64,000 nucleotides of DNA, taken from the NCBI GenBank assembly GCA_001972305.1, contig BDDD01001368.1, forward strand, positions 124,001 through 188,000, read 5' to 3'. Both the position numbers and the translations under genes were made by a program. How positions within the stretch are numbered: position 1 is the stretch's first letter; each line of letters begins with the position of its first letter. Below the pieces are notes generated by a model. That model made no database searches. It was given only the letters and a program-made list of their open reading frames with translations, and was not told the DNA's origin. Of the stretch, positions 3,169-61,252 are shown piece by piece. This stretch comes from Cephalotus follicularis. Its lineage: Eukaryota; Streptophyta; Magnoliopsida; Oxalidales; Cephalotaceae.

Positions 3169-3283
3169 CAGTCGACTACCCTCAAGAATAGTCGATTGCA
3201 TTGGTTGAGTAGTCGACTGCTTTGCCTTAGCAGTCGACTGGATTGGGTTGAGTAGTCGACTGCCATGAAGAGCAGTCGACTGC
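3169..3283. repeat. Cluster of CAGTCGACTG palindromes in the C0 LTR (first cluster)
   Basis: About six copies of the ten-base palindrome CAGTCGACTG, or versions with one change, occur in about 115 bases, spaced roughly 15-25 bases apart. The spacer text differs, so only the motif is repeated. Confidence 0.85.
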
Positions 3284-4308
3284 TTCTGCCCAGAAAATGT
3301 AGGCAGTAGCAGTTTGTATGCAATGCAATGTCCAATTTGACACATGCAATCATACAGAAAATAATATACATGATATGCATAAAATATCTCCCATAACATA
3401 TCACTACCCCTACCTCAAAAGCTTATCCCAAGATCAATTGGAATGATCTATCTCTTTGAGTTTCCAAAGTCCTTCTCCAACAATCTTTTAATTCCAGCAA
3501 GATTACTCTATACAGTACATGCATTAAGGTTCAGTCATTAACCAGGAGATTAACTAGTTATCCAGATGCAATGCTACTTCAACAGTAGCTTATAACTAGT
3601 TCCTTAAGTCTTAAACTTCCATTATCAATACTTTACTATTATTCACTTCTACTTCTAGTAACCACCACGTTTCATGTTACAGAAGTGTATATGTGTTTAG
3701 CCAGTATACACATGCTTAGAGACAATTATAGCAGCAACCCTAATTGAATCATAGGCCTATTAACAATTCTCTAAGCTTCATTTCCATATTTCCTACTCCT
3801 TTTCAATATCAATTCTAATCCCATTTAAAGATTGTTAACTTTAAACATTAACAGAAGATATTGAACATCCTCCCAGTTTACACTATCATTACAATAACAG
3901 TAAGTTCGAATTTAGAAACTTACCAAGAGTCCAAAGCTCCAATCCACCTTCTTTGAGCTCTCTAACCTTCTAATGCAAGCTCTCAATAATCCCAGCAACT
4001 CTCCTCAATATACAGTGTTTCTAACACTCATCTCACAACTCAACAGTTGATATAAGCCTTGAATTCACCAGAGTTCATTTACTCAACTTTCTCACATTTC
4101 CCTCTCTCTCACATGCACCTCTTTCTCACCTTTCTTTCTTTTGATTCTTGCAGGTTGCAGGTCTGCAAGTTGCAGAGGGAATAGAGGACATGCAAGCATG
4201 GCTTTTTGCATGCTCTGGCAGCTCCTGTCTCGTGTGACACCTGCCCACCATGCAATCTCCTCTTTGTTCAGTTTAACAGGCATGCACAGACACCTGTTTT
4301 GTACCGAT

Positions 4309-4438
4309 CCAGTCGACTGGATGGATTGGCCAGTCGACTGTCCACAACACTCATCAGGCAGTCGACTGCTCCCCTGTGACAGTTGGCTGCCCCTTCATAC
4401 ACCAGGCAGTCGACTTCCCCCCTGTGGTAATCGGCTGC
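4309..4438. repeat. Cluster of CAGTCGACTG palindromes in the C0 LTR (second cluster)
   Basis: Four good copies of the AGTCGACT motif and two decayed ones (AGTTGGCTG, AATCGGCTG) lie in 130 bases. They are about 1 kb from the first cluster in the same LTR. Confidence 0.8.
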
Positions 4439-4607
4439 CAAGGGCTGTTTTAGGGTTTCTTAGCTTGTTACTTCACCAATTGTACATCCATTCATCCCAA
4501 GCAATTACCAAACACAATTTGTTAATAAGTGGACATTAAATTCAAATGAGTGCACATTTTAATAATCAATATTATAATGTACACGAATTGAATTTGCAGT
4601 TATTACA

Positions 4608-4667
4608 ATCCTCATCTGTTTTGACCTTAGAGAATCTCGGGACGAGATTTCCTTAAGGAGGGGAGGA
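4608..4667 (+). pseudogene. Last codons of pol and polypurine tract of element A2
   Basis: The stretch matches the end of pol seen in H at 34436-34492 and, on the other strand, in A1 at 14496-14560. The marker is TCTCGGGACGAGATT followed by a purine-rich AAGGAGGGGAGGA that abuts the LTR. Such a polypurine tract primes plus-strand DNA synthesis. Everything upstream in A2 is separated from it by the C0 insertion. Confidence 0.82.
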
Positions 4668-5304
4668 TGTAAGCCCCGAAAAAAAACAATTATAATTTTT
4701 TACTAAGAATAATATTGTGGAAATAGTGCATTTGAGGTTTATTTTAATCGCAGATGATATTGTGATACATAGTATAATTCTTTTATGAATTAATGTAGCC
4801 AAGTAACATTAAATAAGTGAGGGAACAATAATATACATGGTATCATATGGGCCCAAGCTTAAATAATCATTGCAAAACGCCAAAGTCGGCTATGCTTTTT
4901 GCCTTATTAAAACGCTGAGCTCGTGCAAATGCAGAGAAAGAGAGGGCACGTGATATCGAAGAGTGAGATATTGGGAGAGAAAAGAAAAGGGGAAGAGAGA
5001 GAGAGAGAGAGAGAAGAGGAGTTTGGCGTCTTCACCTCTCGGACTCGCCTCCTACAATTGAAGAAACGGCGGAAGAACTAGCAAGGCAGGAGAGGGAACG
5101 ATGCAGGCAGAGGCAGCAAGCACGCCTTAATGACGGTGATTCCTCTTTCCCCTCCTCTTTATCGTCTTTTTCTTCCCCCTGAATGCCGAAGCTTAGAGCT
5201 TCCATTCGGTGACACCCATTTCTATCGCCGAAATTGATACAGGAGAGGAGCTTGGAATTGATGCCACTGGAGCTTTGAGAAGCTGACTGTCGACGATTCG
5301 ATAG
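4668..5304 (+). mobile_element. 3' LTR of element A2, first part
   Basis: The LTR starts TGTAAGCCCCGAA directly after the polypurine tract. Only about 640 bases remain before the copia LTR D1 interrupts it. A tail with the usual end of this LTR group (GGGGCGTGACA) is at 10315-10966. I infer that the two pieces are one LTR with an internal deletion, because both are in the same orientation and no other start or end is available. The piece contains an AG microsatellite and no gene. Confidence 0.72.
4994..5014 (+). repeat. (AG)n microsatellite
   Basis: About ten AG units lie in a purine-rich stretch of the A2 LTR. Confidence 0.9.
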
Positions 5305-5420
5305 TGTTGACGGTTTAGTCTCAATCCTAGTTTTGATGATAACATGTTTGCATCTAAAAAAGTTCACTTAATGTGCAAGATGTTAGAAAGATTCACAAAA
5401 GGCAAAAGACAGTTGTAAAG

Positions 5421-5702
5421 AAAAGACATCGACGTCTTTGAGCTGCCAAAGTTACAGGCCACCTTTGAAGAAAGACATCGATCCCTTTCGAAAAAGACAT
5501 CGACGTCTTTGAGCTACCAAAGTTACAGGCCACTTTTGAAGAAAGACATCGATCCCTTTCGAAAAAGACATCGACGTCTTTGAGCTACCAAAGTTACACG
5601 CCATTTTTGAAGAAAGACATCGATCCCTTTTCAAGAAGACATCGACGTCTTTAGTGCAAAAAAATTACAGGTCGATTTTGAATAAAGACATCGATCCTTG
5701 TA
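5421..5702 (+). repeat. Four tandem 71-base units, each with ACATCGACGT and ACATCGAT motifs
   Basis: The motif GACATCGACGTC recurs at 5425, 5496, 5567 and 5638, exactly 71 bases apart. Each unit has one full palindrome, a linker containing AAAGTTACAGGCC, and a GACATCGATCC half. The fourth unit is more diverged. Further single motifs follow to about 6000. Confidence 0.93.
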
Positions 5703-6093
5703 TGTGAAGACATCGATGTCCAACAAAAGACATCGATCCCTTTCCTTCGACATCGATGTGTTTGAAGACTCAACTGCAAAATCCAGAAAAGACATCGATC
5801 CTTCAAGAAGACATCCATGTGATTCTCATAACCTCAAATGCTTGGATACATTCCCAGAAAAGACATCGACGCCTATAAAAGACATCGATGTCTTTTCAAA
5901 TTGTTTGACCTGGGAATTAAGGAATGGCTAGTTAACCCACTTGCAATGGGTAGTAACAGACAAAGACATCGACTCCTTTCAAAAGACATCGATGTCTTTA
6001 TCTCAGCAGGCAGAAAAACAGAGTTGCATCAACACATCATTTTTATATCTTAAATTCCCAAGATTTATGCAACGGCTACAAAGACTTTTTTGT

Positions 6094-6104
6094 CTATATA
6101 AAGG
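6094..6104 (+). promoter_or_regulatory. Probable TATA box of the D1 LTR
   Basis: CTATATAAAGG lies about 340 bases before the LTR end. D2 has CTATAAAAGG at the matching place (16055-16064). The conserved position supports a promoter role; no transcript evidence is available. Confidence 0.6.
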
Positions 6105-6432
6105 AAGATCCAAAACCTTCAAAAATATAAGAGAGACAACAATCAAGAAACAAAGAATTCAAGCATTCTAGTAAATCTCATTCCACAAAGCTCAAGTGGT
6201 CTAAAGTGTTCTCAAAAAATCTTCACAGCTCTATCCTTTGAGTTCTTCCTTGTGATTCCAATTGTGTTCTGTATTATAAGCTAGATAAAACCTATTGAGA
6301 GGTTATTTTGTAAACACATTTACAAACACTTGAAAAAAAGGTGAATCCTCTAAGGTCTTGAGGTCAAGGTCTTGTGATTGAGTTCAATCACTAAAGTTGT
6401 CTCTTGTATATTGCAAGAGTTGCTTTTTCAAT

Positions 6433-6444
6433 TGGTATAAGAGC
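6433..6444 (+). other. Primer binding site of D1 (one mismatch)
   Basis: TGGTATAAGAGC differs by one base from the initiator-Met primer site TGGTATCAGAGC and follows the LTR end by two bases. Only the stub to 6481 remains of the D1 interior. Confidence 0.8.
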
Positions 6445-6627: not shown

Positions 6628-7743
6628 GCCGACTGCCACAGGGAGGCAGCCGACTGGACTCCCCTGATGAAGGCGACAGCCAGCAGTTGTGAGGAAGTAG
6701 CCGGCTGGTGGGAGTGTTGGCAGAAACAGTCGACTGCCAAGTCATGGCAGCCGACTGCCAGGCGCCAGACTGCCCACGTGCTGTCAGCCTTAAAGTGATA
6801 AAAGTGGGAGTTTTGGCTTATTTGGGCAGATGGTAGAGAGAGGGGCCGGGTTCCACTCTTAAAAACACAACTCTCCTTCTCCAAATCTCCATCTTCCTCA
6901 GCGATTAAAGAGTGTTTGGGAGAAGAGAAAGTGGAGTGAAAGTGTGAGTGTTGTGGGTATACGGAGCTTGGTGTTGAACCGTGGACTTGGAGGCTTAGGC
7001 AGTGGAGGAACCGGACCTGTGGAGGCTGCCGGACGAGCTTGGGAGTGCAAGGACCTCGGATCCGGGACTTAAAGAGGTGGATTGCAACTCCTAACTTGGA
7101 GTTCTAAGGTAGGTGAAAGCTATGATTGTGATTTAAAGTCATTTATAATGATGTTCATGAGTGAAACGCATGTGTTATACTGTGATAAAGCATGAATATG
7201 TATTGTGGTGATAGTGCTTTGTGGTTTGAGTGGTTTAATGTGGATTGGAGTGTGTGATTTCTGCTATTTTTGGGTACTGCCCGCAAGGGTAGTCGACTGT
7301 CCAGGGAGGACAGCCGACTGTCCGAGGACAGCAGTCGACTGTTCATGAGGAACAACCGACTACCCATGGAAAGCAGCCGATTATGCATTGGAGCCAGTCG
7401 ACTGCTCGTGCCTAGAATTGCAGGTTGCTTCCTATTGATTGAGTAGCCGACTGCCAAAGGAAGGCAGCCGACTGTGGGTGGGACAGCCGACTGTTCTGGG
7501 TAACAGCTGACTGTCCACGTGTCACTCTACCTGGACTTGCTGAGGTGGAATGCTGGGACAAGTGGCGACAAAGGAATGTGTATGGACCAGCCGACTGCCT
7601 GGAGAGGGTAGCCGATTGCTAAGTGAGGGACCAGTCGACTGCAAAAGAGGGAAGCCGACTGTTGGTCAAGGACAGCCGACTGCCAAGGAGGGCAGCCGAC
7701 TGTTGGTTAAGGGCAGCCGACTGCCAAGTGAGAAACAGCCGAC
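6628..7743 (+). repeat. One-strand array of CAGCCGACTG motifs (GCCGAC cores) in E1
   Basis: By eye there are 13 GCCGAC hexamers, at 6628, 6649, 6750, 7313, 7446, 7467, 7486, 7590, 7654, 7675, 7695, 7716 and 7738, plus ACCGAC at 7355. All are on the plus strand and most sit in the frame CAGCCGACTG. About five interleaved copies are the palindromic CAGTCGACTG form. RCCGAC is the core of the CRT/DRE element bound by DREB/CBF factors in plants. Whether these copies act as such is inference. Confidence 0.88.
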
Positions 7744-13454: not shown

Positions 13455-13735
13455 TTTTGGCGAGGCGGCGACAGTTAGCTACACCTATAGCGTCGACGTT
13501 TTCATGCTAGGCTTCGACAGTTAAGGCGTTACACCTTAACCATCGACCATTGCGCAAAGTGTTGACCGTTTAATCAACACATAAAGCGTCGACTGTTGCC
13601 TTAAGCATCGACAGTCGTCGTATTAGGTGAAGCGTCGTCGGTTTGAGCAAAGCGTTGATAGTTTTGGATCGCATCCAAAATAGTCGACAGATTGCTCGAA
13701 AGCATCAACAATTTGCTCACAAAGCGTCGACGGTC
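13455..13735. repeat. Cluster of GCGTCGACG-type motifs in the A1 3' LTR
   Basis: About twelve variants of CGTCGACG (GTCGACG, CATCGACA, CGTCGACT and others) occur every 20-30 bases between unrelated spacers. The matching cluster in the A1 5' LTR is at 41520-41855. Confidence 0.82.
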
Positions 13736-14298
13736 TGACAGTGACAGTGGGTTAGTCAAACAGTCTGAAAATCTACTAATATTAGCTTTAAGTTCGTTTA
13801 AACCGTTTAAAACCAGATCGGAAGGAAGCTAGAAGCCCCTTATGGTCGATTACAACTTTAAAAACCTTTAAAACACAATTATCCGTGGTCGTAACCCATA
13901 ATCGGGAAAGGGAAGAGAATATTCCGATAAAGCTATAACTCTCAATTCTCTCACTGATTTCCATTTCAATCCATTGTAAACCATAACAAACACCCAAGTC
14001 CATTCATCTAGCATAGATACAACTATCCATAACCATAAAATCCATTCAATTCAATTAAAATGCATGGATTCAAAGCATATACGTAGAACCTATCTCAAAA
14101 CTTTTGAGAATGAAGAAGAAGCTGAATGGCTGCTTAAATCCTTGTTCTGCTTCTTCCTTCAAGTTCTACACTTTGCCACGAACCCAAAGACTCCTTGCTT
14201 GCTCAATTTTGAGCTCTATCTCTCTAAAACTCTTTCTCACTTCCTCTCTCTAGAAATGGAGACGAGAATGAAGAGGAAAAGGAAAGAGTGTTGCTCAC

Positions 14299-15318: not shown

Positions 15319-16599
15319 TGTTGACGATTAAGTCTCAATCCTTGTTTTAATGATAACATATTTGCATCTAACTAATTTACTTGATGTGCAAGGAATTACA
15401 AGTTGAATATCAAAGTCTAAAACCTATCTGCAGAAAAAGAAGTCGACTCTTTCCAAAATAGCATTGACATCTTTTGTACAGAATTAATTGCAAAGATAAC
15501 ATCGTCCTCTAAGTAATTGGCATCGACGTCCGCACCAAAAGAAGTCGACTACTTCAAAAAGACGTCAACTACTTTCAAGATGACATCGACTACTTCAGTG
15601 ATAACATAGACGCATCCAGTCATTTTTTGGACCAGAAGCTACTGTATGAATTTGCACTCAAAGACATCGAACCTTAAATAAAAGACATCGACGTCCAAGT
15701 GAAAGACATCGACGCCTTAATATAGAGATCGACGCCGTTTTCATAATTCCAAGAAAAAGCATCGACTCCAAGGAAGAGATCGACGTGACACTCAAAGCCT
15801 CAAGACCTGGTGATTTCCCAGAAAAGACATCGACGCCTTTGAAAAAGAAGTCGACGCCTTTTCAAGTGAACAAGACCCGGGAAACATGGAACGGCTAGTT
15901 TAACCACTTATAACGGCTACCAACTGAAAGACATCGACACCTTTCTTAAAGAAGTCGACGTCTTTGTACCAACAGAGATAAAATCAATAATTGCAACTCA
16001 CATTATTAAATCAAAAGCTTCCACAAATCAAGCAAAGGCTATAAATCTTTTCTGGCTATAAAAGGAAGCATGAAACCTCAGAAGAAATACCAAGAACTAC
16101 AACAATTCAGAATTATCTACATCAATCACACAACATCAAGAGAAATCCAATTCAAGCTTTCTAGTGTGCAAAAACCTCAAAGTGCTCTACATTGTTCAAC
16201 AAGGCTTCTAAGCTTAATCCTTTGAGTGTATCTGAGTGTTTCATTTTGTGAGCTATATTTATCCACATCAACCTATTTAAGAGGTTCTTGTATACACTTT
16301 CATATTACTTGTAAAAGAGGAGATTCCTCTAAGGCTTTGAGGTCAAAGTCTTGTGATTGAGGTCAATCACGAACTTGTGAGGTGTAACGATTTGCTGCCT
16401 TAATCAAATCGAGTTAGTGGAAACTCAAGGAGCTCCCTTGGGAAAAGTGGACGTAGGCAAGAGTTAGCCGAACCACTCTAAAAATCGGAGAAGTTTTTCT
16501 TTCCTTGTCTATTTACTTTCAAAGTTTTTTAAATTTCCGCATTTACTTCAATATTCAATTCACCCCCCCTCTTGTATATTGCAAGAGTGTTTTATTTCA
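15319..16599 (+). mobile_element. 3' LTR of copia element D2
   Basis: The LTR starts TGTTGACGATTAAG right after the polypurine tract and ends GTTTTATTTCA, collinear with D1. It has a TATA box (16055-16064), ATCGACG motifs and no 71-base tandem array, so the array is specific to D1. After 16599 the sequence returns to A1 pol. About ten codons of A1 between FHV and THVLEY are missing at the site. Confidence 0.83.
15440..15965. repeat. Scattered ACATCGACGT / AGTCGAC motifs in the D2 LTR
   Basis: About fifteen variants such as ACATCGACG, AAGTCGACT and GATCGACG lie in about 525 bases with irregular spacing. Confidence 0.8.
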
Positions 16600-17533: not shown

Positions 17534-18588
17534 GTTATTCCATCAATAACTGAGCTTCAGGTCTCGGTACATTTTGGTATTCCCTGGATACACTGAGAAA
17601 CTAGAGCGATGAGCTTGTGACAACAGCTTATCCTTGAACTACTTACTGTTAGGAATACAAACTCTGCCTTCAATCGACCACCATGAATCAAGAACTCGAG
17701 TTTCAACCCTCCTTGATCATCTAATGTAAACTTCAACAAACTTCCATCAATACCCCGCACCTCTCTGATTCTATCCAATAACCATGGGCTTGCCTGGATC
17801 TGAGATATGGTTTTGCATGCTAACCGGCGACTTAAGGCATCTGCAACCACATTAGCCTTGGTTGGGTGATACTGTATCAAACAGTTGTAGTCATTGAGCA
17901 GCTCCATCCATCTCCTTTGTCTCATATTCAGGTCTTTTGGGAGAAAATGTGCCTTAGACTATTGTGATTCGTGTACGCATCAAACTTGGTACCATACAAG
18001 TAATGCCTCCATTTGCATAGTGCAAAGACTATCGCCACCAACTCTAGGCCATGAGTTGGATAACTCTCCTCATGACCCTTCAACTTCCTTGAGGCATAGG
18101 TGATCACCTTCCCATATTGCATCAAAACACAACCCAAACCATTCCCTGATGCATCATTGTACACCACGAACCCTTCATTGGCCTTTGATAAAGCCAAGAT
18201 CAGTGCAGAAATCAGGCGATGTTTCAACTCCTAAAAACTCTATTCACAACTATCATCCCAAACAAACACTATCTTTTTCCGTGTCAGTCTGGTCAGAGGT
18301 GTAGCTATCAGTGAGAATCCTTCGACAAAGCAATGGTAGTAGCCCACTAAGCCCAAGAAACTACGGACTTCTGTCATGTTTGTCGTCCGTCTCCAATCCT
18401 TCACTGCTTCTATCTTTGTTGGGTCCAGTGATAAACCGACACTGGAGATAACGTTACAAAGGAAAGCTACCTTCGACAACCAAAACTCACATTTGTTGAA
18501 CTTGGTATACAGCTTGTAGTCTCTCAGAACCTGCAATGCAAAGTGTAAATGTTCTTCATGCTCCTCCATAGACTTGGAATACACCAAT
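17534..18588 (-). pseudogene. pol: Zinc-binding start of integrase, RNase H and second half of RT (A1)
   Basis: In reading order from 18588 down, the RT thumb and connection region (KFNKCEFWLSKVAFL, SFLGLVGYYHCFV) leads into RNase H with [33 protein letters not shown] and [16 protein letters not shown]. The third RNase H acid is lost: the usual TDHKSL reads TNHNSL. The zinc-binding integrase start follows near 17560-17760. Reading is interrupted by stops near 17926, 18228 and 18238. The first half of RT is on the other side of the E2 insertion at 18589. Confidence 0.86.
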
Positions 18589-20817
18589 TGTAATACCTTG
18601 TCTGTTCGTAAATATATTTTACGAATTTTTTTATGTGTGTTTCGGGCTTTTTAAATTTTGTTGATTTTAGAAGTCCGGTTGTCCTTTGTTTTGGGCTTAT
18701 GTGATTTGGGCTGACTGATACCAGTCCGAATTTTGGATATGTTATGCTATGTTGGATTTGGATTTAATTTATCAAAATTTTTATTTCGTTAAAACAATTT
18801 ATCTTTTATATTAAAATCCCTAAAATCCTTTTTAATTCATTATTTTAGTTATATCTTTATTTTCCTTTTATTTTTCTTTTCCTTTTCCCTTATTACCTAT
18901 TTTGTCTAATTCTTCCTATTCTTCTTCCTCTACTCACCCGAAGTCACTCTCTCCTTCATCAATATCACACGGCAAATCTCCTTCTTCCTTTTTCAATTCC
19001 TGAAAATCCTCCTTTGTTTCCTTTATAGCATATTTTTGTCTCCTCTTTTCCCTTTGAAGAATGACATTGTCGTTTATATGTTACCTCCTCTTTTCTGCAA
19101 AATGTCAATGCTGAATTCTTCTTGTGGTGTCTGTGTAGCTGCTGTGTAAACATTTCCTCAAGTCTGAAGAGGTAAAATAGATCCTTTAGTTGTTCTTTTG
19201 AGTTGAATTCATTGGGTTTGCTAAGCTTCTCTTTGTTTTGGTTTCCCTTGGTTTCCTTTGGTCTCTGTTTTGTCACAGCCGATTGTGAGTGTGTGCTAGT
19301 GTTCCTTCTACTGTTTTCTGTGTCCTTTATACCACCGCAGGTCAGTAATTCGTTCCTTTCTGTAATGGTTTTGTTGCAATGTTGTGAAATTTAAGTTTTA
19401 TGTTCCCATGTCCATTGGTTTTAATCTCCTGTTTAGTTATATGTTCTGTTATGGTATTAGTAAGTTGTCAGCATGTTGTGTGCACCATAACTTATTACAA
19501 ACTGGTTTTATAACATCTGTAAATGATAATGGACAGAATCCGGACATATAAGTATGCATGTTCTCTTGTCCTCCTTTGAAGTTAAGCGATTGATTATCTT
19601 GTTCAGTGTCAATTTTGTGTTTCCATGTCACCTAGAGGTCATATATGGTCGTATATTTGTGTCCATATGTCTCTGGTTTAACGTAGTACTCGTTTGAATT
19701 AGTTTCTATATTGAATTGTCTAGTTTCCTACTGTTTTGTGGTCCAGAACAGTCGGCTGTTCCTGTGGACAGTCGGCTGGATTGGATTAACAGTCTACTGC
19801 CATATGAACACAGTCGACTGCTTCGTGTTGTGTAGTCGACTGCCTTATGAACAAGTCAACTGTCTTGGGTTGAGTAGTCGACTGGATCCAAGTGATAGTC
19901 GACTGCCTGCCTTCTGATTTGAGTAGTCGACTGGACCTTGTGATTAGTCGACTGTCAAGCTTCCCCAGTCGGCTGGTGCTCTGTAATAGTCGACTGTTTT
20001 GCCCATAAATGTACTGTTTTCAACTGTTTTGCCCCGTTTGACCCTCGAATCGATCCGAGTCTTTTCCAAACACTGTTAAGAGTCTGTTTAATACTTCTAA
20101 TATGTTTTAGACTCTTATACGTATGATTTTGAATGTCTTTTTAGATTGATTGTGATTCAAGTGAAGTTTTGTTTAAGTCATCTATTCGTAAGTACTTTGT
20201 GAGCGCACGCCTCCCTTGCCAAATTTATGATATGTAATATGTATGTGACTCAGTATGATTTGTGATTTAAGATTTGTGAATCAAAAATAATGTTTTGAAA
20301 TGTTCCGTAATTGCTTCGAAAGATATGCAATTGTTATTTGAATATGATTAAACTGTTTAACTGTTTAAGATTTCTGTTACGAAGTTTATTTAAATATTAC
20401 TGTTTCTAAATTATCATTTACTGTTTTATTTCCCTTATCCGTACTGAGGTTTGCTCAGCCGCGTTTTGTTTTCCATGCGGCAGGTTTACAGGAGCAGCGG
20501 GGGAAAGTGTGATTGAGTGATGACCACCCTATGTATTGGATCCCTAGGAGTGAGATCGTTGTGTTTCATGTTTAGTGGTCATAAACAATGATACTTATGG
20601 TTATGTTATTATGTTTTAAATTTGGAATTTAATTATGTTTTAAGTTATTTCACGAAATATTTAATTGTTAAGTTTTTTTTTAATGTTTCAGATATGATAA
20701 GACCGCCACGTTTTTTGATAATAAAGTTATGTTATGATTAGTAATGTTTATTCTCAGATAAGTAATGTTATGTATGATATGACCTTGTGACGACTCCCGC
20801 CGTCCGGGGGTGTTACA
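18589..20817 (+). mobile_element. E2: solo LTR of the E family with TSD CCAAT
   Basis: The segment starts TGTAATACC and ends GGGGGTGTTACA, flanked on both sides by CCAAT (18584-18588 and 20818-20822), a perfect five-base target duplication. No internal region is present, so it is a solo LTR left by LTR-LTR recombination. It interrupts A1 reverse transcriptase a few bases after the catalytic FIDD codons. It carries a cluster of AGTCGACT motifs and shares the CCGTACTGAGGTTTGCTCAG block with E1. Frames at 18965-19917 have no family features. Confidence 0.94.
19747..19998. repeat. Cluster of CAGTCGACTG motifs in E2
   Basis: About twelve motifs occur in 250 bases: mostly AGTCGACTG, three of the form CAGTCGGCTG (which contains GCCGAC on the minus strand), and single variants AGTCTACTG and AGTCAACTG. 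Confidence 0.85.
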
Positions 20818-26097: not shown

Positions 26098-26252
26098 AAG
26101 TGTCGACTAGTTTAGTTTAAAAGTTTAAAGTGTCGACTATTCAGTTTACACACAAAAGAGTCAACGGTTTTGGAAGCACAAGTATAAAACATCAACTACC
26201 AGTTTAAAGGCATGAAAGCGTCGACGGATCAGTTTTGAAAGCAGTAAAGTGT
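26098..26252. repeat. GTGTCGACTA / GCGTCGACGG motifs in A3
   Basis: Four motifs with an intact TCGAC core and two decayed ones (GTCAACGG, CATCAACT) lie within 155 bases, between TTTAAAG-type spacers. Confidence 0.7.
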
Positions 26253-26772
26253 CGACGGTTTTATCAGAAACAACAGTTCTCAAATCAGTGGAACTATGTC
26301 AAAAATCCATGAAATCCGTTTCAATTTCAGTAAAAACAGTTTATAGATCCACACCCAGTTCCCAGTCGGTGCGATAACTAGTAAACAGTAGCAGTTTCAA
26401 TAACATTATAACAGTCAATCAACACGCGGTAACAGTAACACAGTAACAATTCACACAATTCATCGAAATGCATGAATGCAAGGGATTCTGTAACAGAACC
26501 GATGAACCGTCAACTCCTCTAAGCTTGAACCGGATATCGAACTGCCATCACTTGGGAACCTCCTATCCTTGATCACTTCATTCACACTGCATAAACAACA
26601 TGTTTCCGTTACACTCTACGTACAGAAATCAAGCACAGCCACTATCAAAGCTTCGGCTAGTTTTCAGCCAACTCACTTAGCTCCAGCGACACCCATAAAC
26701 AGACTCCACATTGGTCTATCAATTCATATCTGCCAAGGAACCCCCGTGAAACGTGCTGTCACGGCCGGCTGT

Positions 26773-37364: not shown

Positions 37365-37844
37365 AAGAATTATGGATGTAGGCCACATATTATGGTTATG
37401 GAATTCTCCCTTTTTTGGTGACTTGAGCAATCACCAAATTGTGGATGGATATGGTATGCTTACAAACATGTCTTAGCTCCCAGAGATCTCTATTATGGTA
37501 TGAGCTAGTACCCTTTATAGGGGACTAGCATTATGGATTATGTGGCCGGTGTTATCCTATGCTTCATATGGCTATGGCACGGACAGAGTATAGACGATGG
37601 AGGTACTATCTCGAGCCGATGTTGTAGAGAAGTACTTGACCTTATGGATTGATTGTCCCCATGGATGGTTATGGATTGTTTATAGGGTGTCTGCAGGCCT
37701 AAGGCCTTTGATGTGTTTAGGACTAGCTAAGTGTACCTGCGCTTAGGGACGATTGATATACTGAAGATGTCCACAAATGGCATTCATGAATGTATATATA
37801 TTTGTTATATTTGTGACATGCATAGCATATAATGTATCCTACAC

Positions 37845-41519: not shown

Positions 41520-41855
41520 CCTTTTGCCACAACGTGTCGACAGTTTACAGGGTTAAAGCGGCGACATTTGGGCGAGGCATCAACAGTTAGCTGCACCTAA
41601 AGCATCCACAGTTTGATGCTAAGTGTCGATGGTTAAGGCGTGATACCTTAAGCATCGACCATTGCGTGAAGCATCAACCGTTTAATCAACACATAAAGCA
41701 TCGACTGCTGCTTTAAGCATCGATAGTCTACATTTTAGGTTAAGAGTCGTTGGTTTCAGTAATGCGTCGATAGTTTTGTATCGCATCCAAAAGCATTGAC
41801 ATATTTCTCGAAAGTGTCGACAATTTGCTCACAAAGCGTCGATGGTTTGACAGTG
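41520..41855. repeat. Cluster of GCGTCGACG-type motifs in the A1 5' LTR
   Basis: About fourteen variants (TGTCGACA, CATCGACC, CATCGACT, CGTCGATA, GTGTCGACA, CGTCGATGG and others) occur between 41520 and 41855. Most keep the TCGA core while the outer bases change. Confidence 0.82.
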
Positions 41856-43967: not shown

Positions 43968-45426
43968 TGTTGAGCATAAAAATGTATTCTTTTTAAAGAG
44001 TTAATTATTGTATTTTTATTCTTGGAACATATTACTTTGGTTGTGTTTGATTGACTTTCAAGTAAGAGGCCAAAAAGATCAAAATGTAGAAACACGAGTC
44101 AAATTGGCGCAAATTGAGAGCAAGGAGATCAGAGATTGAACAGTTGACAAAATTCTGCAGAAAACAGAGCAAAGCGTTGACGCCTAGACTTTAAGCGTCG
44201 ATTCCTAACTCTTAAGCACTCACTATTTCAAAGAAGCCGTCGACGCTTTACACTTCAGCTGCAACAAGTTTGCAGTCTTATGATTTTCTTCAACACCAAT
44301 ACATTTGGCGTCAACGTGCTGGGAATTTAATGTTTAGGCGTCAACGCCAAAAGTGCACAGATTGGATTGTAGCTTAAATTTTAATGCACAATGAGGAAGA
44401 TGTCAACGCCAATTTAAGCGTCGACGCCTTGATTGTAAGCATCGACGCTTAACACCTTAGTCAGCTAAAGAACGCAACATACAAGTCGACGCTTAGCGCA
44501 TTCAACATATCAAAGAGTCAATACAAAATGCCAAACCGTCGAAGCCCAGGACTTAAGCGTTGAGGTTTTGACATATCAGACAACAGAATTTGAAAGTTTT
44601 TACAGTTTGATTCAGATAGTAATAGGTTAGATTTTTTCCCTTTTTTGGGGGGCAATTGGAGTATAAAAAGAAAATGACGAAAAAGAGAAAGGTAAAAAAA
44701 ATGTCAAGGGAGCAGCTACTGGATGAAAAATTATCTGAAGAAGATTATTTCTACCATCATCATGATCAGCTAAGTATCTTAATCCCTGGATGTAGATGAA
44801 CCCATGTATTTTATATATCTCATGGTCTGGTTTTTAGGTTTAATGGCATGTATGTAAGACAGTCTTTTCTTGTTAATGTATGTAGAACACTGCTAAGAAG
44901 GAATTTTAATGATATAAAATATGTTGATGTTTTAGTGTTGGCTGCTCTATTTCATTTACATCATGCAATGATTCTTAATTTTTCTATGTGATTGCACCAA
45001 AGACATTCTTTAACCAATCAACCTTTTAAGAGTATCACGGTTTAGCAATATAGGATGTATCTAGGCTAAATCATTATTTTCTGTGATGTTATATTAAACC
45101 TGAATTTATGCCATGAACTTCAGCATATATACATATGGGGGATTCTCACATCTAAGGGACTGTTTTCTCATATCAATTTCTTATTTATATTGTCATATTG
45201 CATTAGATATTTAATCTGAAATGTTCAGTTCATCCTTATCGTAGTTTAATTTAGATCAATTCTCTTTTAAAGTTATTTCATTTAGTGTTCGTTATTTCTG
45301 TTTAAGTGCATACTGAGTTCATTTATATTGCATATCATCACAACTCTTCGTGAGAATGATCCCTACTTTTCATTGTCCTAATTGTTAGATTAGGGTAATT
45401 TTGAATCGGTTCAACGACATCGAACA
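43968..45426 (+). mobile_element. 5' LTR of Athila element B2
   Basis: The LTR starts TGTTGAGCATAAAAATG and ends ACATCGAACA before an Athila primer site. Its length is 1.46 kb. It carries a GCGTCGACGC cluster but lacks the 51-base triplet found in B1 and B3, so it is a different subfamily. Confidence 0.87.
44170..44575. repeat. Cluster of AAGCGTCGACGCC motifs in the B2 LTR
   Basis: About twelve motifs are seen. Intact ones are CGTCGACGC and GTCGACGC. Decayed ones include GCGTTGACGCC, GCGTCAACGCC and GTCAACGCC, which differ by C-to-T or G-to-A at CpG. Confidence 0.82.
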
Positions 45427-46270: not shown

Positions 46271-47582
46271 TGTCACACCCCGTTTTTCAAGGAGACAACA
46301 TTAAAGCGGTAAAGGCAATTAACATATAAATTCAGCTCATATAAAAACCATAAAATTTAAACTTTTAAACAAGATATCAATTGCGGAAGAATTAAACTCA
46401 TAAGCTGAAACTCGTAACGTGCATCCCATACTGCATGCTATTCAAACAAATCTGTCATTTTTATTAGCCCTCAAAATGGAGCGTGATCACAGTACAATAT
46501 TAAATCCCATCATTAAACAAAACCATAAGTACGGCACATTAGTAGTCCTTAAACAAAACCAGGCTTATTACAAAATAGGAGAATAAGTAAAACCAAGAAT
46601 AAAACAACATAACAACTTGTTCTTCGTCCATGCCAATCCAACCGGACCACAGCATCAATCTGTAAAGTAGGGGGTTAGCCTTTGTCCTCACTCGGCTAAG
46701 TCATAAAAGCATCTCGGGATCAATATTAAATGCATGTCATGTGATGTATGCATAAATGATGCAGTGCAGGAAATACCAGTTTATATATATATATATATGA
46801 AAAATATATATATTTTAGCGGTACAGTAAAAATAACAGTGGGTACATACATACGAAAATATATGTATGCAAGAACAGTACAATTGTAACCTGGCCAGGGC
46901 TACATCAACAGGCACAGTAATGTCCGAAAAGGACCAACAAGCAATACAGTATGTCCACAAAGGACCACAACAGACAGGCAGTATGTGTAACGCCGCCAAC
47001 TCCTGGCCCCACGCTACACTCCCACTTCAGTCCCTACTCCAGGCATCCAAGCGAGGCAACAGTACAGTACAGTGAGTCGCCCAACCAACTCCTACCCCCT
47101 AGGTCAACCCTACCACTAGCCGGCGCTGGCAGTCTCCACCATGCAAACAGTGGCTCAAGCACAACCACAATAAATTCATAGAGCAAGCAGTGAATCAAAA
47201 CACTAAACAGTGCAGTAAACACTACAGTATTGATCGTTTAGATCCACAACAGGAAGTTCATTTTTAAATATTTTGAATAACATTTGAAATATGTATTTTC
47301 AGTAGTAGGAATACTTTTGAACAAATCAGTAGTGTACATCGCTTTCCAGTTTGTTCGAAAATGCGTTATTAACCAACACATATTTTCATACTCAAAATAG
47401 CGCATTCCGAGTTCACATATGCATTTCTAAATATCATAACTTTAGAAATCATAAACGATTTACAAACAGTAAACAAACAGGCAGTAAACAGTGTATATGC
47501 AATGCATACAAATGCTCAAAAGCACCCAAATAGGAATCGGGATCGTTTTGCATCGTTCGATAAGGAAACCTCTAAACAGTTC

Positions 47583-47912
47583 CAAAAGACGCGATGTCTA
47601 TTAAAAGGCGTCGATGTCTTTGTCCATCAACGTCGATGTCCAAGTCCTTAGTGTCACCGCGTTCTACTGTTTAAAGACATCGATGTCCATTTTATACGCA
47701 TCGGCGCTCAAGGTCTGGAACCTTTAAACGTCAGCATATTGCTTACGGCGTCGACGCATTAAGGTGGAAAACTTAGGCGTCGACGTGTAATATGTCAAAA
47801 CCCGAGCAGATAGCCTAAGGCGTCGATGTTTTTCCAAAGACAACGACCTGTTTCACATCAGTAACCAAGCAAATAACCCAAAGGCGTCGATGTTCTTAAA
47901 AGGCGTCGACGT
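47583..47912. repeat. GCGTCGATG / ACATCGATG motif cluster, C1 3' LTR (first)
   Basis: About a dozen variants (GCGTCGATGTC, CGTCGATGTC, ACATCGATGTC, GCGTCGACGC, GCGTCGACGTG) occur in 330 bases. Matching cluster in the 5' LTR: 54966-55298. Confidence 0.87.
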
Positions 47913-48667
47913 GTGTCGAGTAGCAGTCGTCTTCTTCCTCACGACACGACAAACAGTAACCATTACTAACCACACACATGCAAGATAACATGTAATCAAG
48001 GTAGGAAACCAACATGCAGATACATATAACATATCTAGCATAACATGGCATTAATCCAGTGAGAAAAAACAATTCAGTAATCATGCAATTTATACACCAA
48101 AACCATAGTTCATGCATGAACATTAATCTCAAGATTACAGTTATGGCTTCCCCTACCTTTTGTTCCAAGTTAGGAACTAGAAAGTCCATCTCTTTGCGTT
48201 CCAAACCATTCACAACAGCCTCTAGGTCCGTCCCGTTGCTGCAAGCCACGATCTTCAAGCTCCAAGCTCCAAAATTCTCAACAATGGTGGTTTGGGTTTT
48301 CTCTCCTTTCTCTCTTCACAAGTGTTTATCCAAGAAGGAGGATGAAGAGGGAGGCGTTTTACGCTGGTCACACATCTCTCTTCCTTCTCTGGCCCGTTGC
48401 ATGCATCTCACAGGCTCCATTTTCCCATTCTTCCCTCTTTCCCAGTTCTGCCACATTTCCTTTGCAGAAGCATGCAATGAAGGCTATCTCTTAGCCTGCA
48501 TGCACACCCAAGTGTCAAGCCATCCCTTCACTTCTAGCACCTGCATGCCTGGTAACATGCCAGCATGGTCAACACGTATTGTCCGTGTACCAAGGCGTCA
48601 GCAAAAGGCCGTAAATAGTCCCCCTTTGCACGTTGTTTTGTCAGTAGAGTAACGTGCCCGACATTCG

Positions 48668-48826
48668 ACGTTACGCATCGATGTCTTCTTCAAAGACGTC
48701 GACGTCTTTCCCCTTTTCATAGGAGGGCATCGATGTTCATGCCTGCATCGACGTGCATCTGTATGCAGTTACGTGCGTCTCTCAGTTCCAAAGGCGTCGA
48801 TGCATTCCGAAAGGTGTCGACGCGTT
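48668..48826. repeat. GCATCGATG / GACGTCGACGTC motif cluster, C1 3' LTR (second)
   Basis: Six or seven motifs occur in 160 bases, among them the 12-base perfect palindrome GACGTCGACGTC. Matching cluster in the 5' LTR: 56050-56212. Confidence 0.85.
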
Positions 48827-49017
48827 TCCTTCAAAACAACATCGTTTCTCATTGATTTGCCTTTTTTAACATTTCTTTGACATTTTTACTCTAAAATTAA
48901 CATTATTAGAGTTTGGAAAACATCATCAAAGCCTTGGAAATCCATCACTTTATTAATTCCACAATAAAAACACATTACATTGTGAAATTACAACATAGGA
49001 AAATCTCGGGCATTACA

Positions 49018-53652: not shown

Positions 53653-54965
53653 CTCTCATCACACCCCGTTTTTTGAGAAGACAACATTAAAGCGGTAAAG
53701 ACAATTAACATATTAATTCAGCTCATGTAAAAACCATAAAATTTAAACTTTTAACCAAGATATCAATTGCGGAAGCATTAAACTCATAAGTTGAAACTCG
53801 TAACGTGCATCTCATACTGCACGCTAGTCAAACAAATCTGTCATTGTTAATAGCCCTCAAAACGGAGCGTGATCACAGTACAATATTAAATCCCATCATT
53901 AAACAAAACCATAAGTACGGTACATTAGTAGTCCTTAAACAAAACCAGGCTTATTACAAAATAGGAGAATAAGTAAAACCAAGAATAAAAAAACATAACA
54001 ACTTGTTTTTCGTCCATGCCAGTCCAACCGATCAACTGCATCAATCTATAAAGTAGGGGGTTAGCCTTTGTCCTCACTCGGCTAAGTCATAAAAGCAGCT
54101 CGGGATCAATATTAAATGCATGTCATGTGATGTATGCATAAATGATGCAGTGCAGGAAATACCAATTTATATATATATATGAAAGATATATATATTTTAG
54201 CGGTACAGTAAAAATAGCAGTGGATACATATATACGAAAATATACGTATGCAAGAACAATACAGTTGTAACCCGGCCAGGGCTACATCAACAGGCACAGT
54301 AATGTCCGAAAAGGACCAACAGGCAGTACAGTATGTCCACAAAGGACCACAACAGGCAGGCAGTATGTGTAACGCCGCCAACTCCTAGCCCCACGCTACA
54401 CTCCCACTTTGGTCCCTACTCCAGGGAACCAAGTGAGGCAACAATACAGTACAGTGAGTCACCCAACCAACTCCTGGCCCCTAGGTCAACCCTACCACTA
54501 GTAGGCGCTGGCAGTCTCCGCCATGCAACCAGTGGCTCAAGCACAACCACAATAAATTCATCGAGCAAGCAGTGAATCAAAACAGTAAACGGTGCAGTAA
54601 ACAGTACAGTATTGATCGTTTAGATCGACAACAGGCAGTTCATTTTCAAATATTTTGAATAACATTTGAAATATGTTTTTTCAGTAGTAGGAATACTTTT
54701 GAACAAATCAGTAGTGTAAATCGCCTTCCAGATTGTTCAAAAATGCGTTCTTAACCAATACATATTTTCATACTCAAAATAGGGCATTCCGAGTTCACAT
54801 ATGCATTTCTAAATATCATAACTTTAGAAATCACAAATGATTTACAAATAGTAAACAAACAGGCAGTAAACAGTGTATATGCAATGCATACAAGTGCTCA
54901 AAAGCACCCAAACAGGAATCGGGATCGTTTCGCATCGTTAGATAAGGAAACCTCTAAACAGTACC

Positions 54966-55298
54966 AAAAGACATCGATGTCTATTAAAAGGCCTCGATGT
55001 CTTTGTCCATCAACGTCGATGTCCAAGTCCTAAGTGTTAGCGCGTTCTACTGTTTAAAGACATCGATGTCCATTTTATACGCATCGATGCTCAAGGTCTG
55101 GAACCTTTAAACGTCAGTGTATTGCTTACGGCGTCAACGCGTTAAGGTGGAAACCTTAGGCGTCGACATGTAATATGTCAAAACCCAAGAAGATAGCCTA
55201 AGGCGTCGATGTTTTTCCAAAGGTGTTGACCTATTTCACGTCAGTAACCAAGCAAATAACCCAAAGGCGTCGATGTTCTTAAAAGGCGTCGACGTGTT
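54966..55298. repeat. TCGATG / TCGACG motif cluster, C1 5' LTR (first)
   Basis: The cluster is collinear with 47583-47912. Some motifs differ by single C-to-T or G-to-A steps between the two LTRs, for example GCGTCGACGC against GCGTCAACGC near 47750 and 55130. Confidence 0.85.
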
Positions 55299-56049
55299 TC
55301 GAGTAGCAGTCGTCTTCTTCCTCACGACCTGACAAACAGTAACCATTACTGACCACATACATGCAAGATAACATGTAATCAAGGCACGAAACCAACATGC
55401 AGATACATATCACATATCTAGCATAACATGGCAGTAATCTAGTGAGCAAAAACAATTCAGTAATCATGCAATTTATACACCAAAACCATAGTCCATGCAT
55501 GAACATTAATCTCAAGATTACAGTTATGGCTTCCCCTACCTTTTGTTCCAAGTTAGGAACTAGAAAGTCCACCTCTTTGTGTTCCAAACCGGTCACAACA
55601 GCCTCTAGGTCCGTCCCGTTGCTGCAAGCCACGATCTTCAAGCTCCAAGCTCCAAAATGCTCAACAATGGTGGTTTGGGTTTTCTCTCCTTTCTCTCTTC
55701 ACAAGTGTTTAGCCGAGAAGGAGGATGAAGATGGAGGCATTTTATACTGGTCACACTTCTCTCTTCCTTCTCTGGCCCGTTGCATGTATCTCACAGGCTC
55801 CATTTTCCCATTCTTCCCTCTTTCCCAGTTCTGCCACATTTCCTTTGCAGGAGCAGGCGATGAAGGCTATCTCTCAGCCTTCATGCACACCCAAGTGTCA
55901 TGCCATCCCTTCCCTTCTAGCACCTGCATGCCTAGTAACATGCCAGCATGCTCAACACGTATTGTTCATGTTCCAAGGCGTCTGCAAAAGGCCCCAAATA
56001 GTCCCCCTTTGCACGTTATTTTATCAGCAGAGTAACGTGCCTGACATTC

Positions 56050-56212
56050 GATGTTACGCATCGATGTATTCTTCAAAGACGTCGACGTCTTTCCCCTATT
56101 CATACAAGGGCGTCGATGTTCATGCCTACATCGACGTGCACGTGCATGCAGTTACGTGCGTCTCTTAGTTCCAAAGGCGTCGATGCGTTCCTAAAGGCGT
56201 CGACGCGTTTCC
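56050..56212. repeat. TCGATG / TCGACG motif cluster, C1 5' LTR (second)
   Basis: The cluster is collinear with 48668-48826 and keeps GACGTCGACGTC and GCGTCGACGCG. Confidence 0.85.
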
Positions 56213-56405
56213 TCCAAAACAACGTCATTTCTCATTGATTTGCCTTTTTTAACATTTCTTTAACATTTTTACTCTAAAATTAACATTATTAGAGTTTGGA
56301 AAACATCATCAAAGCCTTGGAAATCTATCACTTTATTAATTCCACAATAAAAACACATTACATTGTGAAATTACAACATAGGAAAATCTCGGGCGTTACA
56401 GGTAA

Positions 56406-57880: not shown

Positions 57881-57894
57881 GTCGATCTGAAGCC

Positions 57895-59824
57895 ATGGAC
57901 ATATCCTTTGGTAATAAGAAGTTGAGACTAAACATCTTCAATGCAGCACTAGGACCTCAGGGTGAGGAGGATTGTTTTGCAATAGATATGATAGATGAGG
58001 TGGTATCCGAGTGTGCACCTGAGACCCTTGCAAATAATTCCTTGCAACAATATTTGAGCATCTTTGGTGATAGTTGCTATACATACATTATTGAGATTAA
58101 TGCCCTGTTGGATTTTCCCACCTTTTCAAATCTCCCTCCGTGGACATATAAATTTGAGCCATTACCTCCTCTGGCAAAGTCACCCATGCTGAATTCGATA
58201 GAATCTCCGCCTGTTTTAGATAGAAAGTCCTTACCTGACACTTCGAAGTATCTTTACTTGGGGCCGAATGAGGCACTCCCTATCATTATTGCATCCAGTT
58301 TGACTACTGATCAAGAAGACAAGGTATTGGCAGTTCTAAAGGATCACAAAGAGGCCATTGGGTGGTCAGTGACAGATCTGAAAGGCATAAGCCCATCTAT
58401 CTGTATGCATCGGATTTTCTTTGAAGATGGTGCTAAACCTTTTAGGGACGCACATTGAAGATTAAATCCAAATATGTGAGAAGTTTTCAAGAATGAGATT
58501 GTGAAGTGGTTAGATGCTGGCATTATTTACCCCATATCTGACAACAAATGGGTTAGTCCCAATCAGGTCATACCAAAGAAGTCACGCATTACTGGTTGGC
58601 GAGTATGTATTGACCATAGAAAACTTAACTCTGTCACTCGCAAGGATCACTTTCTAGTTTCCTTCATTAATAAAATCCTTGAGAGGCTGTCCGGAAATAG
58701 CTACTTTAGCTTTTTAGATGGCTACTCTGTATATAACAAAGTGAGTGTGTGTCCAGTGGACCAAGAGAAAACCATATTTACATGCCCTTATGGCACATTT
58801 GCTTTCCGCATGATGCCCTTTGGATTATGTAACGCTCCTACCACTTTCTAGCATTGCATGCTCGCTATATTCTCTGATATGGTAGGGGAGTTCCTCGAGG
58901 TTTTTATGGATGATTTCACTGTCTGTGGAGCATCCTTTGATGATGGCCTCCTTAAGCTGGAAAAGGTTCTTAAGCATTGTAAGGAGACAAATCTGGTGTT
59001 GAGTTGGGAGAATAGTCATTTTATGGTTCAAGAAGGCATTGTGCTTGGACACATTGTCTCCTCACGTGGGATTGAGGTTTATAGGGCAAAAGTTGAATTA
59101 ATCTAGAAACTCCTTCCACCCACTTTTGTTCCCAAGTAAGATCTTTTCTTGGCCATGCCGGATTTTACAGGCGATTCATTAAGGACTTTAGTACCATCTC
59201 TAGACCCTTATGCAACCTACTTGTCGAGAAGACACCATTTGTCTTTAATGATGCATGCCTCCAGTCTTTTCAGTCCTTGAAAGATCTATCGTCTACTGCA
59301 CCTATTATCCAGCCACCGGATTGGTCGCTGCCTTTTGAAATTATGTACGATGCATTAGATTATGCAGTTGGTGCTATTTTGGGACATAAGGTAGACAAGA
59401 AACCAGTTGTCATTTACTATGCTAGTAAGACGTTTTCAGAGGCTCAATAAAATTACACCACAACTGAAAAAGAATTGTTAGCAGTAGTGTTTGCTCTGGA
59501 AAAGTTTCGTTCATACCTCCTAGGATCCAAGGTTGTGGTGTATACGGATCATTATGCTCTCAAGCACCTCCTTTCCAAAAAGGACACAACACCATGACAT
59601 TTTCGATGGATTCTGCTATTACAAGAATTTGACTCAGAAATTCGTGATAAGAAAGGTTCTGAGAATGTCATAGCTGACCAACAGTCTAGAATCCTAGTTG
59701 AGTCTCCCCTATGCATGGAATTAGTTAGAGATTCATTCCCTGATGAACATCTTTTTGCAGTCTCCCATACGCCTTCTCCGTGGTATACACATATATTGAA
59801 TTACTTGGGTATTGGGAAGCTTCC
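57895..59824 (+). pseudogene. pol: Reverse transcriptase and RNase H of B2
   Basis: Three open stretches follow one another. The first, 57895-58458, is the pre-RT region with LDFPTFSNLPPWTYKFEPLP and KDHKEAIGWSVTDLKGI. The second, 58501-58851, has the RT fingers (WVSPNQVIPKKSRITGW, CIDHRKLNSVTRKDHF) and palm (RMMPFGLCNAP). The third, 58858-59106, has the catalytic VFMDDFTVCG. After a stop at 59103 a frame change leads to RNase H near 59340-59700 (YDALDYAVGAILG, YTTTEKELLAVVFALEKF, VYTDHYALKHLL). It ends in the usual text PSPWYTHILNYLGIG, then B3 begins. Confidence 0.9.
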
Positions 59825-59989
59825 TGTTTAGCATAAAAATGTATTGTTTTTAATGATTTATTTGTGATATTATTATTCTTGGAATAGACTACTTTGGTTG
59901 TGTTATGTTGATTTTCAGGTACAAGGCCAAAAAGACCAAAGTGCATGAAGAATGAGCTAAATTGGTGAAAAATCTGCAGAAAACAGAGT

Positions 59990-60400
59990 TAAGCGTCGAC
60001 ACCTAGGCCTTAAGCGTCGACGCCTATCTCTTAAGCGCTGACGGGTATGATATAAGCGTCGACGATGCACACTTGTGATGAACAATTCTGCAGATTTATG
60101 ATTTTCGTCAACACCAATCCATTTGGCGTCAACGTGCTGGGAATCCAATGTTTAGGCCTCAACGCTGTGATCAAGATGTCAACGCCAAAACTGTACAAAT
60201 CAAACTATAACTAAAATGTTAACGTGTAATGATCAAGTCATCAACGCATCCTGCCTTCATGAGTTAAGCATAGATGCCTTGATTTTAAGCGTCGACGCTT
60301 AACACTCTAATCAGCCAAACAATGCAAAATAAGAGTCAACTCCTAACGCATTTAACAGATTAAAGCGTCAACGCAAAACACCAAAGCATCGACGCCCCTG
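59990..60400. repeat. Cluster of AAGCGTCGACGCC motifs in the B3 LTR (first)
   Basis: About twelve motifs are seen. Intact GCGTCGACGCC or GCGTCGACG copies are mixed with CpG-decayed forms such as GCGTCAACGTG, GTCAACGCC and GCATCGACGCC. Confidence 0.82.
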
Positions 60401-60788
60401 CCAACCAAAATTGGAAAGTTTTAAAGTTTTTCCCAGTTTTGTAACTAGGTTATTTTACTTCCGTTTTAATCAGTTTGTAAGTACATATATGTGTAGAGGC
60501 CGGCCATAAACAGTGTGTGTAGGCTGTGTAGCCGCCCTCTTGCTCTCTTTTCTTCTTTAATTCAGCTTTTATTTTGCAATGTTTACTAGCTAAAACATTA
60601 AAGGCAAGAACAAGCAATTAGATTGTACTGTTTCAATTCCATCAATAAAAATCCTTGAAGTTTTGATTCATTCTTCAATTTTTTTCCGTGACACACACTT
60701 TGTTTGTCTGATTAAAATCCACAAACATCTTGTCGGTGAATATGAATGTTGGCGAATGAATGGTTTTTTAACGAAATCAATGGAGTCT

Positions 60789-60941
60789 ACTCATACGGCT
60801 TGTCACGGCGAACACACTCCGTATAGACCTAGCATGACTACTCATACTATTTGCAGCCGCTGCCGTACTCCGTATAGACCTAGAATCACTACTCATACGA
60901 TTTGTCATCACAGTCGTACTCTGTATCGACCTAGCTGTCGT
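60789..60941 (+). repeat. Three tandem 51-base units in the B3 LTR
   Basis: ACTCATAC recurs at 60789, 60840 and 60891, each unit ending ACTCCGTAT or ACTCTGTAT, as in B1 at 12731-12883. Confidence 0.9.
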
Positions 60942-61135
60942 TGGTTATTAGGGTTTGATCGTTCAAGTAAGTGAATTGTTAAATATAATCTATGGTGAGT
61001 TTCTATACCCTAAAACCAACTTTTTCTTGCATGTTTTCCTTCACCGTTATTTAGTATTTTGTTGGTTTTTAATTTGCATGCTTTAATCCCTGTTCGTTTA
61101 CAATTCAGCATCATTAACCATTAACGCCTTGCTAT

Positions 61136-61252
61136 AGAGCGTCGATGCTTTCAGTGGATTAGCTTAACCGTCGATGCCTTGATATAAAGCATCGACGCTT
61201 TCAGTGCAATTGTTATTTCTATCGACGCCTTGTGACAAGCGTCGACGCCTTT
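61136..61252. repeat. Cluster of GCGTCGATGC / GCATCGACGC motifs in the B3 LTR (second)
   Basis: Six motifs lie between 61136 and 61252, each near GCCTTG or CGCTTTC. B1 keeps only two of them, near 13070-13095. Confidence 0.82.

Follow-up and report, generated by a model that had tools for sequence, protein, structure and literature searches.

The window analysed here is a stretch of 64,000 nucleotides from Cephalotus follicularis (contig BDDD01001368.1, positions 124,001 to 188,000 of the forward strand; assembly GCA_001972305.1, 1.577 Gb in 9,746 contigs). It is plant-like DNA dense in long terminal repeat (LTR) retrotransposons, and LTRs assigned from sequence features to three lineages (Sirevirus-like copia, chromovirus-like gypsy and, as the weakest assignment, Athila-like gypsy) carry arrays of short palindromes centred on TCGA, set at helically regular distances from one another. 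There are 17 arrays of three or more RTCGAY in the window, and they hold 3-17 sites each, rather than the 6 to 20 per cluster given in the initial annotation of this DNA; some have decayed to one or two perfect cores. Carrier families were checked on coordinates derived in this analysis.

Palindrome arrays and their carriers

The array with the most sites, 17 RTCGAY of the AAAGACATCGAYGTCTTT type at 5428..5993 on the plus strand, lies in LTR D1, where 71-bp tandem repeats (5421-5720; about seven turns at 10.2 bp) form part of it, indicating that local duplication helps build the array. A TATA box (TATATAAA, 6095..6102, plus strand) follows 107 bp past the last site; across the D1 family, 13 of 17 rows have it at 106-108 bp and three at 125-127 bp, and no box was found in the remaining row. 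The LTR end and primer-binding region (6429..6441, plus strand) read CA, ATTGG and then a variant primer-binding site (PBS) with one base changed, while a sister copy (L075) has a C-rich stretch followed by the exact CA/ATTGG/TATCAGAGC, and the internal region of a further copy (L074) contains RVT_2 and gag_pre-integrs domains. We call D1 Sirevirus-like because its junction matches the Sirevirus signature given in the available passages of PMC2829016, a CA/ATTGG junction followed by the PBS TATCAGAGC. A second, diverged LTR of this kind, D2 (68-71% similar to D1), carries 13 RTCGAY at 15442..15959 on the plus strand, with TATAAA downstream at 16056.

Gypsy carriers make up the other two lineages. 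Two minus-strand LTRs that are 94% identical, 46273..49017 and 53659..56400, each hold an array of eight sites (47610-47910 and 54973-55293) and one of six (48677-48821 and 56060-56204). Between them, gag, reverse transcriptase (RT), RNase H and Tf2-1-type SH3 domains score above Pfam cut-offs and an integrase core and a chromodomain score below them; on these domains we class the element as a chromovirus. A chromovirus-like LTR starting near 1985, with a minus-strand PBS at 1970, adjoins a gag domain and coding sequence similar to that of the 46-56 kb chromovirus; it carries six RTCGAY, five of them AGTCGACT, at 3171..3280 on the minus strand (gaps 20, 21, 21, 22 and 20 bp). Farther along the same LTR-like sequence, which is continuous with locus L013 over 2000-4389, four AGTCGACT sites lie at 4312..4414 on the minus strand (gaps 21, 28 and 48 bp). 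An LTR-like unit of the A1 family (18588..20817, plus strand) is inserted in chromovirus coding sequence and contains eight RTCGAY, seven of them AGTCGACT, at 19813-20054, with gaps of 21, 22, 21, 28, 21, 21 and 21 bp; its sister element encodes a protease, an RNase H and a zinc-binding integrase domain, together with gypsy RT motifs. The probable Athila-like LTR, with approximate boundaries at 59820..61444 on the plus strand, has its own motif, AAAGCRTCGAYGCTTT, in clusters of three (59995-60063) and five sites (61141-61246). Its label derives from a decayed PBS-like sequence at 61448 (TGGCGTCGTTG), which we take to be of Athila type, and from the gag domain downstream at 61754-62317.

The remaining arrays are an array at 7286..7742, recognised from its sequence and AGTCGACT positions, with four AGTCGACT sites and many AGCCGACTG-type variants; a decayed array of seven RTCGAY (two cores) at 13492..13850, to which further decayed arrays at 26102-26256, 28440-28617 and 41536-41843 are related; and a cluster of three RTCGAY at 44420-44490. 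Most sites of the 7286-7742 array read AGCCGACTG in place of AGTCGACTG and so contain GCCGAC, presumably the CRT/DRE core, perhaps reflecting an altered specificity. The window also holds an element at 29145-37365 whose LTRs of about 3 kb enclose no more than some 2.3 kb; it is probably non-autonomous.

The palindromes are strongly over-represented

Over positions 3170-61247, there are 58 copies of CRTCGAYG and 23 of AGTCGACT, against means of 1.60 and 0.51 in 100 dinucleotide-preserving shuffles, none of which reached either observed count; the dense arrays described initially are thus real, and larger than had been claimed. Among CG-centred 8-bp palindromes in the window, 66 are centred on TCGA, compared with seven on ACGT, four each on CCGG and GCGC, and one on CGCG, and CpG over the whole window stands at 0.67 of expectation. 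The arms that had been named, AG/CT (23), CG/CG (16) and CA/TG (13), account for 52 of the 66, but the two arms of a site need not match. Palindromes centred on CATG and TGCA are also fairly common in the window (30 and 29, with CATGCATG at 9) and lack the 10.2-bp spacing described below.

The excess extends to the rest of the genome. Our sample comprised 19 arbitrary 10-kb stretches (190 kb, of which 5,907 positions are N; a 20th stretch of 93 bases was left out), and in it the most over-represented 8-bp palindromes, AT runs aside, were CGTCGACG (39 against 0.3 expected from a first-order model, 154x), AGTCGACT (31 against 1.4, 22x) and CATCGATG (24 against 2.2, 11x), the same three words that the window yields, whereas other CG-centred palindromes reached only 0.87-1.67 of expectation. 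Cores are clustered, 113 of 140 having a second core at most 100 bp away, and arrays with a minimum of four RTCGAY occur in 13 of the 19 stretches. Whole-genome counts were 339,984 for AGTCGACT against 23,357 for the reversed word, and 223,473 for CGTCGACG against 8,375, a conservative control since the reversed words lack CpG.

Three related motifs with tolerant arms

The initial annotation described a single motif plan; we find instead that the motifs are three, related to one another and conserved over longer arms. The CRTCGAYG class has the consensus AAAGRCRTCGAYGYCTTT (168 pooled sites) and is carried by Sirevirus-like LTRs, in the form AAAGACATCGATGTCTTT, and by chromovirus copies, in the form aaagaCgTCGAcGtcttt. 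The Athila-like AAAGCRTCGAYGCTTT, derived from only 11 TCGA sites, has each arm one base shorter. The AGTCGACT class (64 pooled sites) has the consensus YAGTCGACTR and a chromovirus carrier, and AGYCGRCT variants are likewise kept.

Unmatched arms are tolerated. Core counts in sample and window together are 55 for CGTCGACG, 48 for CGTCGATG, 37 for CATCGATG and 27 for CATCGACG, that is, 75 mixed sites (CGTCGATG and CATCGACG) compared with 92 perfect ones (CGTCGACG and CATCGATG). Within the CRTCGAYG core, the two R/Y positions therefore look nearly independent, and a site looks more like two tolerant half-sites than an exact palindrome. With both strands counted, the outer dinucleotide is CG 185 times, CA 149 times and TG 31 times; the inequality of CA and TG argues against plain CpG decay, under which the two would be about equal.

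Sites lie on a helical lattice

From one site to the next the distance is mostly 19-22, 28-32, 42-43, 46-52, 59-64 or 71 bp, a regularity absent from the initial annotation. We measured it with each distance counted once per array group, using 23 groups that were partly hand-split from the 11 blastn components described below (two arrays were added, one locus was left out, and some groups are related to each other). The 504 distances up to 200 bp gave a period of 10.20 bp, as did the 452 distances of at least 26 bp, while the best period was 10.40 for 26-100 bp and 10.15 for 60-200 bp. In each of the four distance ranges, all 500 jittered sets fell short of the strength seen in the data, and a bootstrap over groups placed the period at 10.12-10.28 bp, with about 2% of replicates at or above 10.4. 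Control hexamers had little strength at 10.2 bp (RTGCAY, R=0.03 over 229 distances; RCATGY, 0.05 over 363; RGATCY, 0.12 over 49), and in a separate test RCATGY peaked at 8.5 bp, a peak reached by 9 of 1000 jitters. RACGTY reached R=0.22 at 10.2 bp (83 distances; best period 10.18) and is not an independent control because GACGTC is found in certain arms of the motif itself (GACGTCGACGTC).

Genome-wide, strict RTCGAY pairs number 205,984 at 21 bp, 9,346 at 16 bp and 1,872 at 26 bp, against 4,231, 445 and 367 for reversed-pattern controls. Because big families push such totals up, more weight falls on the grouped test. Pairs under a looser pattern, 31,181 at a distance of 31 bp against 2,720 in the control, were not taken as evidence. 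The 16-bp pairs (e.g. G000:C1:500232-500253) are, among the places listed, mostly a single word, GTCGATGAGGCTCTGCATCGAC, and perhaps represent a separate repeat family.

Families share the motif and not the surrounding sequence

Arrays of at least four RTCGAY in the window and in loci fetched from elsewhere in the genome, 40 in all, fell into 11 blastn components. We then compared 21 array regions in all pairs by blastn, before and after masking each site together with 6 bp around it. Cross-family matches of 14 to 185 bp disappeared on masking, except for 18 bp that the L022 LTR still shared with the L020 leader, whereas same-family pairs survived (D1-D2, three L022/L011 regions, two A1 copies, and L012-L020a). 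This agrees with the earlier proposal that the motif is shared and the surrounding text is not. Descent of all arrays from one captured segment, which had been named as the outcome that would overturn that proposal, finds no support at the level visible to masked blastn. Masking leaves only short spacers for comparison, so recent exchange is excluded and old exchange would merely be hidden. Distant relatives that we located through LTR parts outside the arrays mostly have several cores in the corresponding regions.

We also asked how well core sites are kept between copies. For three family sets, copies were found through LTR segments outside the arrays, and 12, 16 and 16 were chosen from the roughly 40 best of 5,859, 6,222 and 1,785 candidates; to these, the alignments add 2, 1 and 1 copies from the window or sample. 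In pairwise comparison, CpGs were kept at 0.889 in cores against 0.708 elsewhere, 0.848 against 0.714, and 0.892 against 0.711. Counting each majority CpG once and pooling the sets, retention was 0.879 at 41 core sites and 0.799 at 74 others (p=8e-5). A first pairwise figure (0.88 in cores against 0.53 elsewhere, 35 pairs) was set aside as biased, since the arrays had been chosen by their motif. Conservation is thus present in the pool and modest at this short divergence, and it could also reflect protection from methylation.

Relation to known palindrome arrays

Part of this phenomenon has been described. According to the available passages of PMC2829016, Sirevirus LTRs carry clustered copies of short palindromes (RM boxes) upstream of the TATA box; these are called Sirevirus-specific and absent from classic (copia) retrotransposons, and their core is CGG-CCG in all except tobacco Tnd-1, with TCGA-centred boxes in Vitis (CGGTCGACCG) and Tnd-1 (ACAATCGATTGT). 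D1 resembles these elements, as far as those passages go, in carrier type and in having its array shortly upstream of a TATA box, and D1 alone shows the signature junction. The Cephalotus arrays differ in having, in place of CGG-CCG, a TCGA centre with AAAG arms or the form YAGTCGACTR, and in occurring also in chromovirus-like and Athila-like LTRs and in a copia leader; the chromovirus-like carriers have gypsy RT, RNase H and gag and other LTR ends, and we do not file their palindromes as RM boxes. Helical spacing is not described in those passages.

In maize, Sirevirus palindromes are small-RNA hotspots (Bousios 2016, as cited in the available parts of PMC5311732 and PMC10760457), and one maize palindrome occurs in both Copia and Helitrons, so that sharing between superfamilies has a precedent (PMC10760457, in part). 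The likeness to our arrays lies in clustering within the LTR control region; the maize sequence differs (CACCGGACNNNGTCCGGTG), and those sources interpret it through small RNAs and the structure of the RNA. A further parallel is VANC21, which reads dense motif arrays in VANDAL21 elements of Arabidopsis, where density matters (PMC5735166, passages available). In both cases short motifs are densely arrayed in the non-coding DNA of plant mobile elements, but the VANDAL21 motif described there is a same-orientation YAGTATTAY in one DNA-transposon family with an element-encoded reader, whereas the palindromes here occur in several lineages, among which no search aimed at an element-encoded reader was made. 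Tandem arrays in Retand elements are, from the portions of PMC11963269 available, a different phenomenon. Our searches of an open-licence library turned up no account of this motif in LTRs of both copia and gypsy elements, and none of sites spaced by the helix; among the titles listed for the motif words themselves, nothing was relevant. The novelty proposed initially for copia, Athila and chromovirus LTRs together thus narrows: the Sirevirus-like copia part is known, and the extension to chromovirus-like and Athila-like LTRs, together with the helical lattice, is new.

Possible functions of the arrays

We lean, with some reserve, toward the arrays being clustered binding sites, enhancer-like in character and gained or kept convergently, for a putative dimeric host DNA-binding protein. 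We infer a sequence-specific reader, or a few paralogues with overlapping specificity, of which one dimer would occupy each 14-18 bp palindrome; because most sites follow one another at two helical turns and so face the same side of the DNA, dimers next to each other could cooperate in binding, and the filled array would enhance the LTR promoter from an upstream position. The motif would have been gained or kept convergently in separate lineages and multiplied partly by local duplication. A dimeric protein on one helix face would account for the symmetry of the sites, their tolerated positions, the lattice, the multiplicity of sites and, in D1, the place ahead of the TATA box. The excess of the motif in window and genome, and its presence in several families that have little else in common around the sites, also speak for this interpretation. 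The initial annotation had invoked selection or exchange; regular spacing, the CA:TG ratio of 149:31 and, less strongly, core CpG retention favour selection, whereas exchange is not supported.

Several observations weigh against the binding-site interpretation. Arrays were initially placed in LTRs throughout, yet in the copia element L020, outside the window, five core sites lie between the PBS and the integrase/RT region, the array at L020:3850-4028 sitting in the 5' leader about 150 bp past the PBS, and the plus-strand LTR pair 29145-32213 / 34487-37365 has no core sites and one RTCGAY in each member. Some distant relatives likewise have few or no cores nearby (none in L017, one in L019). 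TATA words are present in the chromovirus LTRs, and we established no fixed relation between them and the arrays. Three motif variants may require more than one protein. By family, the per-site CpG difference gave p=0.0005 for the chromovirus, 0.19 for A1 and 0.15 for D1, and A1 alone showed higher conservation in the columns beside the cores (0.976 against 0.917; chromovirus 0.913 against 0.935, D1 0.956 against 0.961).

A bolder version of the binding-site interpretation, which we offer as speculation and expect to be wrong more readily than right, takes the spacing further. The period of nucleosome-wrapped DNA is 10.2 rather than 10.5 bp, so an array with a 10.2-bp lattice kept to about 190 bp might be read on wrapped DNA, in chromatin. 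Copia and two gypsy lineages might then have converged on the site of one host factor, whose row of pioneer-type dimers would open LTR nucleosomes and serve as a switch shared by a large part of the retrotransposons in this genome.

Among the alternatives, it is unlikely that the palindromes act as RNA, either through hairpins in LTR transcripts that feed small-RNA silencing, as suggested by the maize hotspots discussed in the available parts of PMC5311732 and PMC10760457, or through RNA dimerisation. Five of seven sense segments do fold better than their shuffles (z -2.9 to -7.9), but two do not, including the Sirevirus-like D1 (z +0.47); any palindrome array would fold, mixed arms are tolerated at the sites, and it is hard to see what a helical lattice would do in RNA.

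Also unlikely is that the arrays are landing sites for a protein of host or element origin that prevents silencing by keeping the LTRs unmethylated and so resembles VANC in function. Dense short motifs in non-coding parts of VANDAL21 are read in this way (PMC5735166, in the passages available), and local hypomethylation would also yield the better CpG retention in cores; against it, that array belongs to one family with one orientation and its own reader, and the palindromes here span several lineages.

We consider it improbable that arrays spread between lineages by exchange of LTR sequence, through recombination or template switching, and then diverged. An 18-bp motif is common to Sirevirus-like and chromovirus LTRs, and raw D1 matches to the L022 LTR extend up to 119 bp at 73-75%, but the loss of cross-family matches on masking, with same-family ones kept, speaks against exchange, as do array positions and gaps that differ between families.

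That the spacing is purely a nucleosome feature, the sites marking the rotational setting of wrapped DNA without any enhancer, seems very improbable: 10.20 bp (bootstrap 10.12-10.28) is closer to the nucleosomal value than to 10.5, but a nucleosome preference does not need a palindrome of 14-18 bp, and distances of 26-100 bp alone fit best at 10.40. Chance, CpG content or CpG decay can hardly be the source of the palindromes, and we rejected them: CpG content does differ among LTRs, but shuffles fall far below the observed counts, other CG-centred palindromes stay near expectation in the genome sample, an LTR pair of comparable CpG has no core sites, CA and TG are unequal, and the sites keep a lattice.

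If the binding-site interpretation is true, hundreds of thousands of genomic sites would fall under one regulatory grammar that crosses the superfamilies of retrotransposons. One protein might then account in part for the growth of several families, and the struggle of elements and host over it would become directly testable. The arrays argue against palindrome boxes being private to Sireviruses, and they provide a precise motif and spacing rule for use in other plants.

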